Below, piece by piece: positions 46,652-64,000 of a DNA stretch of 64,000 bases (its first letter is position 1; each line of letters starts with the position of its first letter). Location: NCBI GenBank assembly GCA_019614645.1, contig JABWDB010000016.1, positions 6,095,501-6,159,500 of the forward strand, read 5' to 3'. The DNA comes from Stratiolaelaps scimitus (taxonomy: Eukaryota > Arthropoda > Arachnida > Mesostigmata > Laelapidae). Below the pieces are notes generated by a model. The model ran no database searches, had not been told where the DNA came from, and worked only from the letters and a program-made list of their open reading frames with translations. The translations under genes and the position numbers were made by a program.

Positions 46652-49600
46652 GTAAGACAATTCTACGCTATCTCATGGTCATGATCTAGGGCCAGCCCGT
46701 TTGTATTAGGAGCTCAAATATGAAGATCGTTCGCTTCATTTTCATTGAGAAGGCCACCAATCTTGAATGATGCTAGCGTGCAAAACACCGTCGACCAAAA
46801 TCAACTGATCATCCAGCAATATATATATATTTATATATATATAAACGCCACTGAGAGTTCGTCTTGGCCGCAGTTGGGATTTATTGAGTCAATATTTCGA
46901 GCGATTATAACAGCATCACTTCAATGTCATAGAATCCGTGTTCATTCCTGTCGGTTTCGTTTGAAACGACAACAACTACAACGAAACAAGAGTACATACA
47001 CAAACGCGCACACATCCGATTAGCCGTTGACTGATATTGAGACGTGGCGCTTCTTTTTATACTTCGATTAGTTCAAACTAGGAGAGTTGAACAGCTGATT
47101 AGCCGCCTATTTCATTACGTTGCGATGCATACTACACGACGTGCTAAGTACAATTAATGATGGAGTAAGTGCATCACGTTCATTTGAGTTATACAACTAG
47201 CGTATGACCGTCCCAAAGGCCACCACAAATCAAACCAAGTCTGACAGCCATCAGTCAAGCTAATTAGGGCCGCAGATGCGGCGGATCAAGCCTATTGCCA
47301 TGAATCCATGGATTCATGACTGCCAGCAGGCGCGACCATCTGAGCAATAAAAGACATTGGTAGACTTCAACCATTCATAGATTAATACATTCCTACCATG
47401 ACTTCATATCATGGTCAGCTGGCAAAGAAATTTTTGTTCCAGAGCAAAGCAAGTGTTGGATTGCACATAACGCTTGTGATTATTATGTCAAGAATGACAT
47501 GAAATGTACGTTGGTTTGTATTTATTATTTTGAATTATGATCATTATCTGTTTGAGAGAGAGAGAGAGCGAGTTCTGTTACGATATTCCATCAACACTTG
47601 TGACTGTTTTGTGAATAAATGTGTACATATCAATATATGAAAGTCATTGATGTTCATTGGAATAAAAAATCTCTTTCTTCATAGTAGTAATATGAACGTA
47701 CGTATGTAACTTCAAGAAAATTATAGAAGACGAGGAGACAGCGTGACGACTTCATTCAAAACCTCCGCCAAACCAAAAACACCTATAGAACAATTCGAGG
47801 TGGTTTTTCTCACCTTTTTTTTACAAAACACGATTTTGTTTGTTTGCGTTTCGTCATGTACCTATGCTTTCACCTATTGGCTATGTTCGTTGATTTCCTC
47901 AAAGAGCTTGAACAACGTGAATAGCAAAATGCGAAAGACTACAAAAATCAATTCGATGTTGTAGAAGGTAAATATATGCGTCAGTTCAAACAGGATAAAT
48001 ATCGGTATCAACTCAAAAAGGTAGGGCATACGCATTTCCACCTGACTGCTATCGCTTCCATTAGCTGTCTGTTGGTAGCATAATAATAATAATAATAATA
48101 ATATTTCACCACCGGGGACAAGCGCGCAGGCTCTTTCCTCCTGCAGCGCCTGTCCCTCGCTGTGCAGAGAGGCAATGCCATTGCCTTCCTCGGGACATTG
48201 TCGTCCTCACCCCCCCCCACCCCCATAATCCCTAGAAATTCCTAACTACTGTATGTTTGAATAAACTATAGAATAATTACCATAATATTTCATATGTGTT
48301 ACAAGCACACGCTGACATGAAACAATGATACCACATTGATAGCTGGCTAAAATGAGAAGAAAAATATTAACACAAATAAGATTTTTTGACGACCCGGCAA
48401 AAATTGTTGCAGCTTGTATTGGATGATTTGGTGCACCCATCGTGTAGCTTCGACCTTGCGCCTTCACGCTATCGTGTGCTCCGTACGCAACAAAAACAGA
48501 GAACGTCTACGAAAGAGGGACAATGATATTCGTGGGGTGATGGCAGAAGGTTATTCTACAGAATTGAACATATTTAATTGATTAAAATCGCTTTAGTAGG
48601 TACACTGGTTGAAATCCACCCTCTGAAATCCACATTTTCTCTACCGACTTACACATTCGCCCAGCACATTTGACTGTAACCCACGCACCCGCGACAACTG
48701 CTTTCGAAAATGAGAAAGTATGCCCTTGAAAATGGCGTTACGTAGTTGTTATTACGAATTACAATACCCTGATATCCGTATTGACGTTTTTGCGCCTTGC
48801 AATCAACAGCGAAAATACGAGGCATATTCTGTCTATCAGTGCCCTTGACATATAGTGAGATATACTCTTCAGCATGGCCATATCTGGTACCTTGTCAATT
48901 AATCTCTCAATCAATTGTGTTCATTAACACAACTAGATCTACTACGGTCTGTCTTATTCTCCATCTTCAATGCGACTCTTTATAATATAAGCCCATTATG
49001 CCCACACGTAACTAGCATCAACCTCTAGAGAAGTCGGTTGAAATCCAGACGACACTGAAGGAGAGACGGTCAATTTTGCCGAAACATTTTGACATGATAT
49101 ATTTTTTTGATCAACATAATACGACAGATTTACCCTTACAGGGGTCGAGATGCTTTGTACGAAAGGCACTAAGATCGCAAAGTGTAAATAACGTGATTGA
49201 CATTTGCACTGGCTTGAATAAATGCGATTTTCATATTTTCCAATAAATCTAAAAGAATAATTGTAGCCTACTTTTTCAATTTAAAGAACAAATTCTTTCA
49301 TCAAACGAATTATGATCCAAGTAAACATACGGCCACAGTACGTGGCTTAGTAACGGCCGGCTATTCAACTGAGCTGACCGTGGGTACTTAATGATACATA
49401 GACCACTTCATATACCACCAAAGACAACTACTGTTAAACAATTACCTTCTGGTTGGCCTGTCCGCGTCAAAGCCCTTACAACAATTGCTACAAATTACTT
49501 AGTTGCAAAAAATATTAGGTGCAAACAATGAAAAAATGACGTTACACATTAATAAAGATATAAAATGACATTCGTAAAATTTACATATATATATATATTT

Positions 49601-57023: not shown

Positions 57024-58722
57024 CTCATGAGATTATGCGAGTGGCGTGCGTTGTCGTTCGCAAGCCTTGATCGAGTGAATCCCGATGAGAGCAAATGCGA
57101 TACTTCCTTCGGCCTTTTAGGTGGAGGACGAATCGGAATTGCGTGTCCGTATATAGTGTGAATATAGACGTCGGACGGTGGGTGCCATGATGCTCACGCT
57201 TGTGGAGGGTGGTTTCGAAATAGGTTTGCGCTGCCCCGAGTCACACCTTCTTCTCCTCAGTCTCGGCTGATTCTTCTGCAATCTCACAACAACAACCCTC
57301 AGCGATCGGAATTCCTATGGACGTCCTGTAAGCTGTGTTGTGGAAGGAAGTGCAGTTGGAACGGCGTAGCACAGCTTGGGGACGACGTGGTTGATGATAC
57401 TCGACCATCCTTTCCGGTGACGTCCTTTCCGCTTTGTACCCCATAGCTCCTAGCCACCGCAGCGATTCGTTGAGGGTTCATTGATCGGTTGTTGTCTTGC
57501 CGTGTGGATGAGGATATTGCTTGCTCCAGCTACCCCATAGCCAATCCATCCATAAACATTTCCCGTAAGCAACAACACCAGGGGGCGCAGATGGAGCATC
57601 TCCGGAGCGCTCCCGCATCTCTCCATTCTACCACAGATAATCGTCTATACTACGCACGTATATGGGGGTAGTGCACAGTAGAGCACAGATAGCCAGCGGG
57701 CCCAGACGGCTAACTTGCATGCGTGTCGATTCGGAGGAACAAGGAACTCCGACGCGTCCTAGCAGCTGGCACTGCAGGGCAAAGTGAGTGAGCTTTGCCT
57801 CATAGGTGGTGGCGAGGCCTGTGGAAATATTGGCAGCGCTGAACAATGATATAGGAGACCGATGACTTGTATTCTAAGGGCCGCCCTGGTTACTGTACGT
57901 TGATGGATGATAACGTAAAAACAAGCAGTTTGACACACTGCAAGTGGGCGGTCATTCGTAACCCCTATCTCTCGCTTTGGTTTGGTAATCTGTAGCTAAG
58001 TTGTGGGGTCTAATCCATTGAAATGAATAAAGACGACGACGGCAAGAAGAATGGCCAACGAGTCGACGCAGGAAACGGATGAATCAGAACAGAGCGAGAG
58101 ACGGATATCCCGTGGACGGTGAGATCCCGATTGTCGTTGCGAATATCGCACGGCTTGAAATTTTTTTTGTCGTTTGTCGTAAAATCCTAATCTCTAAATA
58201 GCTAAGAGCAATTCAAGGTCATCGCAGCATGTGAACGTAGATACACCGACAATATTAATACCACACAATTCCGTCTAAGACAATGGTGGAAATAGGGAAT
58301 GTTTTTTTTCAGCTGGGTATACTTTCTTCGCTCGCGGGCAGTCTCCACTCGGATAGAACTATTTTTTACTGCGGTTGCCACGAGAACCACGGAGTGGTTA
58401 GAAGGGCGGAACAGAGTCCTGCCGGGTGGAACAGAGTCATGCCACGGTAATAACTTCCAGCGGTGCGGAAATGTACTCTAAGTCATAATACTGGTAAGGG
58501 TCACACAAACGAACCAGAGTTCTGCATATGAACTATTATTAATCAAATTAATTTTGTAACCATTGTTGTAGTCAGAGATAACTATTGCGCCCCAACTTTA
58601 GACCTTGTGTATGCCCTTGCGGAGTCGCTATCCAGTGATCAAGGCTGATCCAGCCTCGCAGTGGCGATTCCAAATGCTGCTATATGATCGGCCAAGCATT
58701 CCTCGATTGATGACTTCATTTA

Positions 58723-58932
58723 TCAATTAAATCTCCCTGGTACGGGCAAGCAGCAGGGGACGTTTGGTGCGCAATCGATTGCGTGGTCAATCCTATCGAA
58801 ACCCTCAAGACAACCCTGTGACCAACAAAAACCTCCGGCATCCCTGCACTTGAAGTCAAGGCAATCGACAGTGTAGTGTGCTGCTAATGCCAATAGTACG
58901 AGGATAATGGCGATAGTCGCGTTCTTCACCAT
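58723..58932 (-). CDS. secreted beta-defensin-like peptide, one domain (copy 1)
   Basis: Intronless 69-residue precursor. Signal peptide MVKNATIAIILVLLALAAHY, with likely cleavage around TVDC (Val at -3, Cys at -1). The mature part has six Cys at 29, 36, 41, 54, 60 and 61: spacing C-x6-C-x4-C-x12-C-x5-CC, the pattern of beta-defensins, big defensins and the domains of tick carboxypeptidase inhibitor. The glycine before the second Cys (GGFC) is also typical of this fold. The tail LPVPGRFN has the Leu and Gly-Arg seen at the end of domain 2 in the edge copy (CCLGR). It is secreted and could be antimicrobial or a protease inhibitor; the sequence does not decide. Two paralogues follow in tandem. 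Confidence 0.72.
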   Translation of the reverse strand: MVKNATIAIILVLLALAAHYTVDCLDFKCRDAGGFCWSQGCLEGFDRIDHAIDCAPNVPCCLPVPGRFN

Positions 58933-59059
58933 TTCAGTGTTTTATGTAATGGTCTAGCTGTTACACGTTCGGTAATACGTTCGGCAATGACAAGAACCTT
59001 CACAGAGGAGTACAGCAAGATTTAGAGCGAATTGCGTCAGTTAGAAGCGCTTGTATGGA

Positions 59060-59095
59060 TATATGTTTATGTATATATAGATATATATTGGTCAC
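59060..59095 (-). promoter_or_regulatory. TATA-rich upstream element of copy 1
   Basis: Minus-strand TATATATCTATATATAC about 140 bases upstream of the ATG. The paralogue has an (AT)n tract at the corresponding place (61425-61447), and both are followed upstream by a conserved GGTCACG. A TATA box is possible; a simple repeat is the alternative. Confidence 0.25.
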
Positions 59096-59387
59096 GGTTC
59101 GAAGTATTTCTAGCTTAAGTTAATATCATTTCGGTATGATTATTTAAATGTAGGATCACGTTGACAGCTAGTTCACATTGCACCACTGTAATTTACTGTA
59201 TAATATTGTTCGAAATCAAGTTTCAATTTCGTAGTGCATTCATACGAAGAATCAATCATCAATATCGCGATCATGGCTGGAATATGTTGTTTGAATAATT
59301 CTTCTGATCAAAAAGGATCATTCATAAGGGGAAAACAACGATAAGATTCTCAAACTGTCTAGTTCCCTTCCCTCATTCTTGCTATTG

Positions 59388-59836
59388 CACCGGCTGCATG
59401 GGTTCGATCCCCGTCGATGTACATTTTCATTTAGGGATTGATTTTACGAAGCAATGGGAAAGCAATACCGCGGGCAAAGCTGAGGAAGTACGCCGCACTC
59501 CAAGCAACGCACCTGTTTTCCCCCCTTGCCTTTGAGACCCTGGGCGGGCACGGCCCTCTCACTGCGAACTTCCTCGAGGGGGTCTACCATAGGTTGATCC
59601 GCGCCACCGGGGACAAGCGCGCTGGCTCTTTCCTCCTGCAGCGCCTGTCCCTCGCTGTGCAGAGAGGTAATGCCATCGCCTTCCTCGGGACATTGTCGTC
59701 CTCACCCCCCCCCCCCACCCCCATAATCCCTAGAAATTCCGACCTATTGTAACGTTTAATATATTATAATAAATTATACTTTTCAAGCTATACCGTGGAC
59801 ATTAAATATTGGCTAAGAGTCTGCACGAAAAGGTTT
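59388..59836 (+). repeat. SINE-like repeat interrupted by a LINE
   Basis: Head CACCGGCTGCATGGGTTCGA (B box) at 59388-59476 and tail TACCGTGGACATTAAATATT at 59792-59836 are the two halves of the SINE-like family, split by the LINE fragment. TACCG is present on both sides and may be the target-site duplication. Confidence 0.65.
59474..59790 (+). mobile_element. 5'-truncated LINE with RT-ORF C-terminus, copy 2
   Basis: Encodes the C-terminal end of a non-LTR retrotransposon polyprotein to a stop at 59750: FSPLAFETLGGHGPLTANF, TGDKRAGSFLLQRLSLAVQR and GNAIAFLGTL. These match the post-RT C-terminal segment of Jockey/CR1-type elements (P-A-ETLGG...SFL-QR-S-A-QRGNA). A poly-C run and 3' UTR follow. 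It is truncated at the 5' end, inserted into a SINE-like element, and nearly identical to 48105-48250, so the family was active recently. Confidence 0.75.
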
Positions 59837-60607
59837 GGTATTAAATAAGTATCATAAATAGTACCCTGTCGAAAGCAAGATTTCTGAATATGAGCACTTC
59901 GGAGAAAAAAAGATTGTAAAGTCCGTAGAAAAAAACGGCGTGGTTGCTGATACTGGGCCATCCCTCCCGGTGACGTCCTTTCCGCTTTGTCGCTCCATAG
60001 CTCCGAGCCACCCCAGCGATCCGCGATGGGCTCATTGATTGGCTTGTTCCAGCTCCTCCCCATAGCCAACCCATCCATAAACACTCTATTCAAGCAATAA
60101 CACCAGGAGGCGCAAGCGGAGCATCTCCGGAGCTCTCCACTCTATCTCTCGCTCCATCTACCACAGATAATCGTTTGCCCTCACCGAATGTGTGTGGGCA
60201 TGGTGCACAGTAGAGCGTAGACAGCCTAAATGGTGTACATCGCCAGCGCGCTGCCTGGCGGTGGTGGCTAGATTTATGGAAATATTGGCAGTGGTGAACG
60301 ATGATAAAGGGGACCGATGACTTGTGTCCTAGAGGTGGGTGGTCCTAGTTACTATATGTTGATGATGAAAACAATAATAAAACAATCAGTCTGACACTAC
60401 AAGTGTGGGCGGTCATTCGTAATTGCCGGCCCCTATCTCCTCGCTTTGGTTTGATGATCTGTAGGTAAGCAGTGGGGTCTAGTCCGTTGAGATGAATAAA
60501 GACGACGATAAGAAGAATGGCCAACGACTCGGATGCAGGAAACGGATGGATCACAGCGGAGTGACAGAAGGGGAACCCCGTTTACCGTGAAGAATATTTC
60601 ATAAGTC

Positions 60608-60754
60608 ATGCGATATTCGTTATCATATGATTTGCAGCCCCGATTTGTCTGCCGCCGGCTACGGACAAATCGGGGCATTACCCACCAATGGAGCGATAAT
60701 GCGTGATGTCCGCCTGGGGCGTGAAATTGTAAATCGTGATTACGAATATCGCAT
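60608..60754. mobile_element. fold-back (MITE-like) element
   Basis: Terminal arms ATGCGATATTCGT at 60608-60620 and its complement at 60742-60754, with imperfect pairing continuing inward to about 27 bases. Within it, a second perfect 13-bp hairpin, GCCCCGATTTGTC (60637-60649) with its complement at 60664-60676. Not present as such in unit 1. It codes for nothing convincing. Confidence 0.5.
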
Positions 60755-61113
60755 TTCCAAAAGTTTGAGGATAAGCTCTCAAGCTCGTCTGTCCATTCAT
60801 TCATGGATGGAATATGGATGGATTTAGAACGGTGCGGAATTGTTGTCAGCATCTATACTGTTAAGGGTCACACAAGCACATAAGCGCACTTATATTATTA
60901 TATATAAAATATTATTTGAATTGACTCCCCTCCGTTTCCAAGTTGATTAAATAAACATTTTATAGCGTTATTTTAGTGAGGCAGCTTGTTTCAGAATATT
61001 GCCCCGCAACGTTTGGACCCAGGACGCATATTCCCGTGGGATGAGTCCCAACCCAGTGATCAATACTGATCCGTCCTCGCAGTGGCAATTGCCTGTGGAT
61101 GATCGGCCGAGCA

Positions 61114-61152
61114 TTACTTCCGTATACAACAGAATTCAGATAATTCGCAACC
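61114..61152 (-). pseudogene. remnant of a second peptide domain
   Basis: Just past the stop of the middle peptide gene, and one base out of frame with it, the minus strand reads GCELSEFCCIRK then TAA. It aligns codon for codon with the end of domain 2 in the edge copy (ECKLHEFCCLGR then TAA). The middle of the domain is missing. This shows the middle copy descends from a two-domain gene. Confidence 0.6.
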
Positions 61153-61360
61153 TTGAGCCCTTGGGGTGGGGTGTGCAGCAGGCGACGCCTGGTGGACAAT
61201 CTTCAGCGTTGTTAACCCTAGTGTAACCCCGAACACAATCTACCGGAGGCGTGCAATAACCTTGATGAGCGTGGCAGTTGAATTTCCGACAGTCCACAGT
61301 GTAGTGTGCTGCCAGTGCCGACAGTATGAGGATAACTCCGATAGTAGAGTTCTTCACCAT
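61136..61360 (-). CDS. secreted beta-defensin-like peptide, one domain (copy 2)
   Basis: Intronless 74-residue precursor with signal peptide MVKNSTIGVILILSALAAHY, nearly the same as copy 1. Mature Cys at 29, 36, 42, 55, 61 and 62: C-x6-C-x5-C-x12-C-x5-CC. Closest to domain 1 of the edge copy (AEDCPP, CCTPH). After CC the frame runs TPHPKGSRLRII and stops, because a deletion and frameshift removed most of a second domain, whose end is still visible at 61114-61152. Whether the shortened product is functional is open; the signal peptide and all six Cys are intact. Same possible roles as copy 1. Confidence 0.72.
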   Translation of the reverse strand: MVKNSTIGVILILSALAAHYTVDCRKFNCHAHQGYCTPPVDCVRGYTRVNNAEDCPPGVACCTPHPKGSRLRII

Positions 61361-61424
61361 TTTAGTGGACTATGTTATGTTCTTGCTATTACACGTTCTG
61401 CAATGATGACAAAAAACGTAGGTA

Positions 61425-61447
61425 TATATATTATATATATATATATA
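61425..61447. repeat. (AT)n tract upstream of peptide copy 2
   Basis: AT dinucleotides at the position of the TATA-rich element in copy 1, followed by GGTCACG as there. Confidence 0.7.
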
Positions 61448-61892
61448 CCTATTGGTCACGTCTCGAAGCATTTTTAGCTTAAGTCAACAATCATTTTGGA
61501 ATGATAATTTAAATGTAGGGTCACGTTGGCGTCAAGTGACAACATCTGCTCGCTGTTGGCGGTTGATTAAGTCATGGAGAACTCCTGCGCTAAATAAAAT
61601 AAAACAAATACCTTCTATACTATTTTCTCGTTACTGAAAGTAAGTGTTCTTTGTACATTCATTCTGAATGTTAAAGGAGCTTGTTGACAGCTTGTTTACA
61701 TTACCTCTTGTTTGGCCCACTGTAATTTACCACATAATACTGTTCGAAATCAAGTCTCAATTTCGCACATTCGTAGGAAGAATCAATCATCCAATATTAC
61801 GATCATGGCTGAGATACGTGGTTTAAGTAATTACTCTGATCAAGACGATCATTCGTAAGGAGAAAACAACGATAAGACTTATTCTTGGTATT

Positions 61893-61995
61893 GCACCGGC
61901 TGCGCGGGTTCGATACCCATCGATGTATATTTGCATTTAGGGGTCCATTTGCGGAAGCAATACCGTGGACGCTAAAGTCAGCCCGAAAAGGTAAA
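61893..61995 (+). repeat. dispersed SINE-like repeat, uninterrupted copy in unit 2
   Basis: CACCGGCTGCGCGGGTTCGA, then CATTTAGGGGTCC, then ATACCGTGGACGCTAAAGTC and AGCCCGAAAAGG. This is the intact-order counterpart of the LINE-split copy in unit 1. Confidence 0.7.
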
Positions 61996-62142
61996 GGTAA
62001 AGGTTTAATGGTTTATTGAAGGAGCTGCAATTTTACAATGCTTAAGCTCTCTTATATGTCACACGTTTGGTATTAATTAGGAAAAGTAAACACCTCTGTT
62101 GTTCCGCAACGACAAAGCTAGGTCCTGCCAGCCTCTCCGCCG

Positions 62143-62925
62143 TTGCATTATGGTAATTGTGGGAAATGGTTTACGCCGTGTGCGTGCCGCGCGGGAGGGC
62201 GATGCCTCCGGAGGACCTGCCGAGTGTCCGGCCGCCCAGGAGAGCGAAGCCTGGAGCGGCCGACGACGTTGATGCTAGGGAGGTCGTGCTGCCTGCTGAC
62301 GATGCGCCCTTCAGGGAGCAGCGTACGAAGGGCGCCAAGCGTCGCGCGGGCCGTGCAACGCGCGCACTTCGGGTTGGCATCCACTCGAGCCCTCACTTGT
62401 TGGTTAAGGTGATGGTCCGTGGCTGGGCGGTTGAAGCCGGCGGGCCTTTCCCTCCCTTCGAGCAGGGCCAGATGCTCGTCCTATTCAAGAGTGCTCATGA
62501 GGCTCTCCCGAGCTGCACTCCAGCTCTGTGGGGCCGACGGGCTCATATTTGGGCGCCCACCCTGGAGGTCACCCGCAAGGCGATGTCGCTAACGACCCTC
62601 GGCCGCATCCCGGTGTTCACTCACAGTTCGGGCTCTCGAGTACCAAGGCCCGCATTACGAATGTCTGCGGCCTTCATCGATGCCGAGATTCTGGCTGAAC
62701 ACGCGTCACTTCCGTCCGCCGTCTCCCCGCCGCGCCGGGTCTGGTTCGCCTCTCGCCAGGGCCTGTCTTGCTCACCTTCAGCGGGCCGCCTCCCCCCTCG
62801 GTGTTCCTCGGCTACCGGTCCCACCCGCTCGCCCCCGAACCGGACCGCCCACCGTTGTGCTTTAACTGCTGCCGGACGAGTCACATCGCATTCATTGATT
62901 CGCTCAATGAACAAAAGTAGCTTCA
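62143..62925 (+). mobile_element. LINE ORF1-like fragment, frameshifted
   Basis: A GC-rich block with a long open frame (62157 onward, 283 codons), but the recognisable part lies in another frame. There LTFSGPPPPSVFLGYRSHPL leads into RPPLCFNCCRTSHIAFI, the pre-zinc-knuckle and CCHC knuckle of non-LTR ORF1/Gag-like proteins (GY---V-P--P-P--CF-C---GH). The last Cys of the knuckle is lost. Frameshifts and the missing RT ORF mark it as dead. It separates peptide units 2 and 3. Confidence 0.6.
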
Positions 62926-63049
62926 GGGTAGAGTGGAGAAACGAGTGTTATATCGCTGGATTCGTATTGCAGTACGGATATACTACGTACAGTAAAATCG
63001 AGAAATGATTACAGATCCAGGTTTGATCTTCTAGCTTTTGCTCATGTTG

Positions 63050-63208
63050 TGCTGCAAATACTTACTCGCCAAAGAAAATGGAATGTCGAGGGAAATGGGG
63101 AATGCTGCAAATACCTACTCGCCAAAGAAAATGGAATGTCGAGGGAAATGGGGAATGCTGCAAATACCTACTCGCCAAAGAAAATGGAATGTCGAGGGAA
63201 ATGGGGAA
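63050..63208. repeat. 53-bp tandem repeat, three units
   Basis: Three adjacent 53-base units (63050-63102, 63103-63155, 63156-63208) beginning TGCTGCAAATACYTACTCGC, almost identical. The period is not a multiple of three, so the open frames across it shift between units; this is a minisatellite, not a protein repeat. Confidence 0.9.
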
Positions 63209-63625
63209 TGTCATGGAATGTCACTCCCTCGAATCGTTTTATCTAATCTAGCTGCATTTCGTGAAGGATTACCGTATCGAGTAAACCTATGCTCACACAG
63301 TTACCGCAGTTACATGACGCAATGCAGCTATAAGACTTGGTGAAGGTGATATAACCGGTGCAGCTCGTGTTCTCTGCTGTTGAGATACGTACGGGGATGA
63401 CAGTCTTCCTACTAGCATCCACCTGTACAATCTAACTTTCAACTAGTTTCCTGCAGATCATGGAACGGAACATGCTTACCTCAGGTGGCATGGAATCTGC
63501 AATCCATGGTACCCAACTAGCAACCCGATCGAATAATAGCCATTTCATGCGCTATGCCCTTATAATACGATTACGGAATAATTACAAAACAGCAGGTGAA
63601 TTTGATCCAGGAATGCTATGTGTTA
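63209..63625. other. spacer between LINE fragment and peptide copy 3
   Basis: No gene or repeat recognised. Confidence 0.5.
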
Positions 63626-64000
63626 GTTGAATGAGGTAGCAAGCTTCAGAATATTGCGTTGCAGTGTTCGGACCTACGTCGCATATTTCCGTGGGATGAC
63701 GGTCACAATCTGCCCTCGCAATGGCAACTGCAAATGGTCGTGGATGATCGGCCGAGTATTATCTCCCTAGACAACAGAATTCGTGTAATTTGCACTCATA
63801 GGCCAATCTGCGTATAGTTCCATTGGGGCAACGGGAGGAACAGTACCCTCCATTTTCAGAGCAAATAAATCCTTCATGGTGGGGTGTGCAGCAGCGGACG
63901 CGTGGTGGACAATCTTCAGCATCGTCAGTTCTAGAGAAACCCTCAGGACAATTCCCTGGTGAACAAAAACCTCTATGATCCCGGCAGTTGAAGTTCCGAC
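63626..64000. repeat. tandem duplication unit 3 (cut by window end)
   Basis: From GAGGTAGCAAGCTTCAGAAT this resembles 60977 onward in unit 2 and the 3' flank of copy 1, including the conserved GATCGGCCGAG block just past the peptide stop codon. Confidence 0.65.
63759..64000 (-). CDS. secreted peptide with two tandem beta-defensin-like domains (copy 3, 5' end outside)
   Basis: Open from the window edge to TAA at 63759, with no start inside the window. The visible 80 residues hold two six-Cys domains. Domain 1, starting CRDHRGFCSPGNC, has spacing C-x6-C-x4-C-x12-C-x5-CC. The linker is TPHHEGFI. Domain 2, starting CSENGGYCSSRC, has C-x6-C-x3-C-x11-C-x5-CC and ends CCLGR-stop. Domain 1 aligns with the single domain of copies 1 and 2, so the missing part should be the same signal peptide. 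Two tandem beta-defensin folds in one secreted protein is the architecture of tick carboxypeptidase inhibitor, whose C-terminal tail blocks the enzyme; here the tail is only Leu-Gly-Arg. Antimicrobial activity is the alternative. Confidence 0.72.
   Translation of the reverse strand, partial: RNFNCRDHRGFCSPGNCPEGFSRTDDAEDCPPRVRCCTPHHEGFICSENGGYCSSRCPNGTIRRLAYECKLHEFCCLGR

Follow-up and report, generated by a model that had tools for sequence, protein, structure and literature searches.

At the far end of the 64,000-nucleotide stretch of contig JABWDB010000016.1 analysed here (hereafter the window) lie three small minus-strand genes, copies 1 to 3, which encode cysteine-rich proteins of one or two domains (Table 1). 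Copies 1 and 2 have in common the signal peptide MVKN(A/S)TI...ALAAHYTVDC, and each carries it together with the cysteine domain in a single uninterrupted open reading frame (ORF); the signal peptide of copy 3 would fall beyond position 64000, and the 5' part of this gene lies outside the window. A preliminary description of this DNA had proposed three minus-strand paralogues, with a signal peptide shared by copies 1 and 2 and a six-cysteine spacing, and both the ORFs and a pattern scan confirm this. On the evidence of four domains in three genes, one of which (copy 3) is cut by the edge, the locus is very probably a tandem array of genes for secreted, disulfide-rich proteins of predicted beta-defensin fold, in which at least copy 2 comes from a two-domain gene and has had most of domain 2 deleted.

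Table 1. Features of the array, with positions in the window
Feature	Positions	Strand	Description
Copy 1	58723-58932	minus	Complete ORF with stop, 69 residues; signal peptide and one six-cysteine domain
Copy 1 signal peptide	58861-58932	minus	24 codons; cleavage inferred after VDC
Copy 1 six-cysteine domain	58750-58848	minus	C-x6-C-x4-C-x12-C-x5-CC; AlphaFold2 (AF2) model with a predicted local distance difference test (pLDDT) score of 86.7
Copy 2	61136-61360	minus	Complete ORF with stop, 74 residues; signal peptide, one six-cysteine domain and a different C-terminal tail
Copy 2 signal peptide	61289-61360	minus	24 codons; cleavage inferred after VDC
Copy 2 six-cysteine domain	61175-61276	minus	C-x6-C-x5-C-x12-C-x5-CC
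Copy 2 domain 2 relic (3' end)	61119-61149	minus	In a frame other than that of the ORF; 25 of 31 bases identical to copy 3
Copy 3	63759-63998	minus	Open at the window edge; 79 residues visible, two six-cysteine domains, 12 cysteines
Copy 3 domain 1	63888-63986	minus	C-x6-C-x4-C-x12-C-x5-CC
Copy 3 domain 2	63771-63863	minus	C-x6-C-x3-C-x11-C-x5-CC
Duplicated unit with copy 1	57382-59455	minus	Its segments have homologues in 59935-61961, in matching order
Duplicated unit with copy 2	59935-61961	minus	Counterpart of 57382-59455

A beta-defensin-type six-cysteine spacing ending in CC was found in all four domains. The gap between cysteines 2 and 3, earlier given as 3 or 5 residues, does take both values, but it can also be 4. 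A six-frame scan of the window with the strict pattern C-x6-C-x3-5-C-x11-12-C-x5-CC returned exactly four matches, all in copies 1 to 3, against none in 60 first-order Markov simulations, and a chance origin of the pattern was therefore rejected. A relaxed beta-defensin pattern picked out the same four domains only (simulations: mean 0.03, largest 1), and tblastn with the three proteins revealed no further copy in the window, the best E-value outside the copies being 0.11. From spacing and fold, we infer disulfide pairing 1-5, 2-4 and 3-6 in each domain.

Copies 1 and 2 each sit in one of two tandem duplicates, about 2 kb long, which match each other piece by piece and are collinear, bearing out the earlier view of tandem paralogues. 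DNA alignment showed that copy 2 is without most of domain 2 and retains its 3' end; this relic scored 32, compared with a null mean of 13.2 and a largest value of 23 among 1000 nulls. Like copy 3, the relic ends three residues after its CC with a basic last residue (frame 61114-61239). Because this out-of-frame piece persists, copy 2 derives from a two-domain gene: its one-domain form is secondary and its ancestor had two domains. Behind copy 1, a domain 2 relic was not found (score 16, reached by 203 of 1000 nulls); the shared flanks suggest the same two-domain origin for this copy, without proving it. The one- and two-domain forms first reported thus stand as counts (one domain in copies 1 and 2, two in the edge copy) but not as two parallel designs, copy 2 being a truncated form.

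Divergence between copies 1 and 2 varied by region. In the aligned unit, differing bases amounted to 19% of the 5' flank (86/455), 18% of the signal peptide (13/72), 38% of the mature domain (47/123) and 30% of the 3' flank (338/1121, a count that includes a block at about 58152-58479 which is 53-62% divergent and may be misaligned). Divergence of the mature part exceeds that of the 5' flank (Fisher p 1.8e-5), but its excess over the 3' flank is not clear (Fisher p 0.08). Nonsynonymous (dN) and synonymous (dS) divergence were 0.10 and 0.62 in the signal peptide, and 0.61 and 0.45 (copies 1-2), 0.39 and 0.50 (copies 1-3) and 0.29 and 0.29 (copies 2-3) in the mature domain, where the bootstrap fractions with dN above dS for the three pairs were 0.78, 0.29 and 0.50. 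All six cysteines are retained in copies 1 and 2 despite the divergence of the mature domain, an outcome whose simulated chance was 0.0003 at 40% divergence and 0.04 at 18%. These figures point to a secretion signal under constraint and to cysteines that have been kept; that the mature peptide is under clear positive selection was considered and is unsupported, since dN is not clearly above dS and divergence not clearly above that of the 3' flank.

Two other explanations bear on the same figures. It is improbable that copies 1 and 2 are pseudogenes in decay next to two-domain genes that are intact (copy 3, perhaps with more past 64 kb): copy 2 does carry an out-of-frame relic of domain 2, and dN is close to dS in the mature domain of all three pairs, but neither ORF is interrupted between signal peptide and stop, the signal peptide is constrained, and six of six cysteines are kept in both copies. 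We likewise give little credence to the idea that ligands of a venom or saliva type, with targets such as ion channels or signalling proteins, diversified on a defensin scaffold after duplication. Secreted toxin families commonly combine a conserved signal peptide with a mature part that varies more, as is seen here (18% and 38% of bases differing, respectively), and sea-anemone channel toxins do occur low in the fold-match lists; however, the raised divergence runs into the 3' flank and is not clearly specific to coding sequence, and dN/dS is around 1, not clearly above.

The AF2 model of the copy 1 domain predicts a beta-defensin (trans-defensin) fold, in agreement with the beta-defensin-type fold for which a structure check had been recommended: of its 29 Foldseek matches 25 were trans-defensins, none of them at E ≤ 0.001. 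Among profiles, Pfam Defensin_beta (PF00711) matched two of the four domains (best 16.7 bits, E 0.0073; cut-off 21) and Meleagrin (PF08189) one, domain 2 of copy 3, which on its own gave the best Pfam E-value (8.6e-4); copy 3 scored 16.3 bits against this Meleagrin/Cygnin model, below its cut-off of 25. Neither profile was matched by any of ten shuffles with fixed cysteines (five of the copy 1 domain, five of domain 2), which gave one zf-A20 match at E 0.94. At E ≤ 10, sequence searches of the PDB returned 0, 15, 13, 1 and 0 rows. Most of the proteins listed were unrelated; the top rows for query A2 were factor VII light chains (E 0.032), and gallin was the single match of copy 3 domain 2 alone (E 0.74). 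In the protein database, queries P0003 and A3 gave no candidate and A2 gave five, none at E ≤ 10; an NCBIfam search with four proteins found no relatives, and none of the pattern matches in viral contigs (28) or prokaryote genome contigs (54) was confirmed as a relative. The impression that the sequence is unlike known families therefore holds for the protein databases searched. Nor did we find a description of the array in the literature searched, in the portions available, to which our statements on the papers cited below also refer.

With such a fold, the products could be antimicrobial host-defence peptides, comparable to the lobster panusins or, for copy 3, to avian AvBD11, a possibility that we consider doubtful. 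The predicted fold is nearest to beta-defensins, the Defensin_beta and Meleagrin matches vanish on shuffling, the family is secreted and in tandem, and panusins show that such arrays occur in arthropods (PMC7203481). Yet these profile matches remain under the Pfam cut-offs, and the net charges (K+R minus D+E, counted without His and termini) of -2 for the mature part of copy 1, +4 for copy 2 and +1 for copy 3 are not the usual cationic make-up. Copies 1 and 2 also lack the phase-I intron that precedes the cysteine region in beta- and big-defensin genes (PMC7203481). The immune role first proposed is weakened by these charges and because the closest ecdysozoan two-domain relative found in the available literature is an enzyme inhibitor.

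Comparison with known defensins gave only partial likenesses. A fit to big defensins, also suggested at first, fails: unlike those of horseshoe crab and molluscs, copies 1 and 2 have no hydrophobic N-terminal domain, their signal peptide running straight into the cysteine domain, and no intron at the position described in PMC7203481. Panusins, like copies 1 and 2, are an arthropod one-domain beta-defensin cysteine array without the big-defensin N-terminal domain; a two-domain form is unmentioned in the available part of PMC7203481, and the likeness is drawn from their description. As far as its available part goes, this 2020 review names as ecdysozoan beta-defensin-type cysteine arrays only horseshoe crab big defensins and panusins, and leaves ticks unmentioned. 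AvBD11, a vertebrate protein, is spaced Cx6Cx5Cx9Cx6CC-x9-Cx6Cx6Cx7Cx6CC (PMC9138766), as against Cx6Cx4Cx12Cx5CC-x8-Cx6Cx3Cx11Cx5CC in copy 3, and the resemblance may be convergence or very distant kinship. The ovodefensins (Meleagrin/Cygnin, gallin) supply the best Pfam E-value and the PDB match of copy 3 domain 2, but they are bird proteins, the match is below the Pfam cut-off, and OvoDA has spacings x5-x3-x11-x3 (PMC9138766) where x6-x3-x11-x5 is seen here.

Among invertebrates, the two-domain proteins that we found described are the tick carboxypeptidase inhibitor (TCI) and the rusticalin-like proteins (PMC6339383, PMC7379824). The latter, like other cysteine-rich repeat pairs, have paired beta-defensin-like repeats that remotely resemble TCI, but these repeats as a rule accompany further domains, a peptidase for instance, and no such domain was seen in this array; cysteine-rich repeats occur in further fungal and metazoan proteins as well (PMC7379824). 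TCI (MEROPS I68; PDB 1ZLH, 3LMS) has the same two beta-defensin-type domains, 12 cysteines, CC pairs and short tail as copy 3, whereas copies 1 and 2 do not show this architecture. The TCI family, with 12 conserved cysteines (PMC3244413), has been counted as 24 sequences from nine tick species (PMC5361777), and TCI was considered unique among described structures in its two beta-defensin repeats (PMC6339383). It enters the active site of activated TAFI and blocks it (PMC8036986, PMC2684115).

We therefore put forward, as a tentative explanation that we prefer to an antimicrobial role, that the two-domain copy 3 may be a TCI-like, double-headed metallocarboxypeptidase inhibitor. One domain would bind an exosite of the enzyme, and the Leu-Gly-Arg tail that follows the last cysteine of domain 2 would enter the active site, its basic last residue resembling the substrates of B-type carboxypeptidases. 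Being without domain 2 and its tail, the truncated copies should not inhibit by this mechanism and would be free for another role or for decay. Consistent with an inhibitor, copy 3 is a short protein that holds 12 cysteines, two CC pairs among them, and the near-zero net charge of copies 1 and 3 disfavours a membrane-lytic peptide. Its three-residue tail is also within the range of known carboxypeptidase inhibitors, whose folds differ but which have in common a C-terminal tail of 2-5 residues as the active-site element (PMC5511257, PMC9966942).

Several observations speak against an inhibitor of this kind. Position P1, mostly aliphatic in carboxypeptidase inhibitors of this type (PMC9966942), would here be Gly, and I68 has been reported, in the source available, from Ixodida only (PMC5673224). 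The two-domain protein was modelled poorly (pLDDT 52.7, from a single sequence), so that domain 2 is assigned its fold from the cysteine pattern and a weak profile match. Solved structures in the fold-match lists are defensins and not TCI, an absence that does not exclude TCI. The PDB searches by sequence (E ≤ 10) brought up no TCI chain. Pfam, which presumably holds an I68 model, listed none for these proteins, and the matches that it did give (Defensin_beta, Meleagrin) point to defensins, below cut-off. TCI itself differs in having no detected sequence similarity, and one-domain copies stand here beside a two-domain gene; the likeness to TCI is drawn from plan, not from spacings. Copy 3 resembles I68 in plan, but as neither I68 nor the solved TCI chains nor any other protein searched matched it in sequence, we do not claim membership. 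In its overall plan the array is as close to this tick enzyme inhibitor as to the classical antibiotic defensins. We file the array in the trans-defensin fold class, as TCI-like in plan, without a family assignment. That it belongs to an undescribed invertebrate family of double beta-defensin fold, unrelated to big defensins or I68, with signal and cysteine domain in one exon and one-domain forms arising by loss, is conceivable but rather unlikely.

The surrounding DNA has a CpG observed/expected ratio of 1.10 at 44% GC over positions 1-64000, which is unlike methylated vertebrate DNA and fits an invertebrate; this ratio and the lack of an intron before the cysteine domain disfavour a vertebrate origin. 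An approximate tick-repeat pattern had no matches in the window. Ten other frames of the window matched no Pfam family above cut-off (two weakly below it), and Rfam and ARAGORN scans of the window found nothing. A GGTTCGA motif, which we take to be like a tRNA B box, lies within a short repeat shared by both duplicated units (59384-59407 and 61890-61913); ARAGORN called no tRNA. Between copies 1 and 2, a 105-residue open frame (59435-59752) gives the impression of the end of a retrotransposon protein and has no Pfam match, and the segments 48109-48270 and 59604-59768 form a repeat pair, 91% identical. A GC-rich block at 62157-63008 (62%, compared with 44% in the window), with a 283-residue plus-strand open frame that has no Pfam match, is without counterpart elsewhere in the window and is perhaps an insertion. 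Between copies 2 and 3, positions 63050-63210 hold a 53-bp tandem repeat in three copies (99% matches).

Copy 2 captures domain loss in the act, with an intact domain 1 beside a piece of the lost domain 2, so that the two-domain ancestor can be read directly from it. For the scaffold as a whole, another family with two domains would help to settle whether it was recruited for inhibiting enzymes on more than one occasion.

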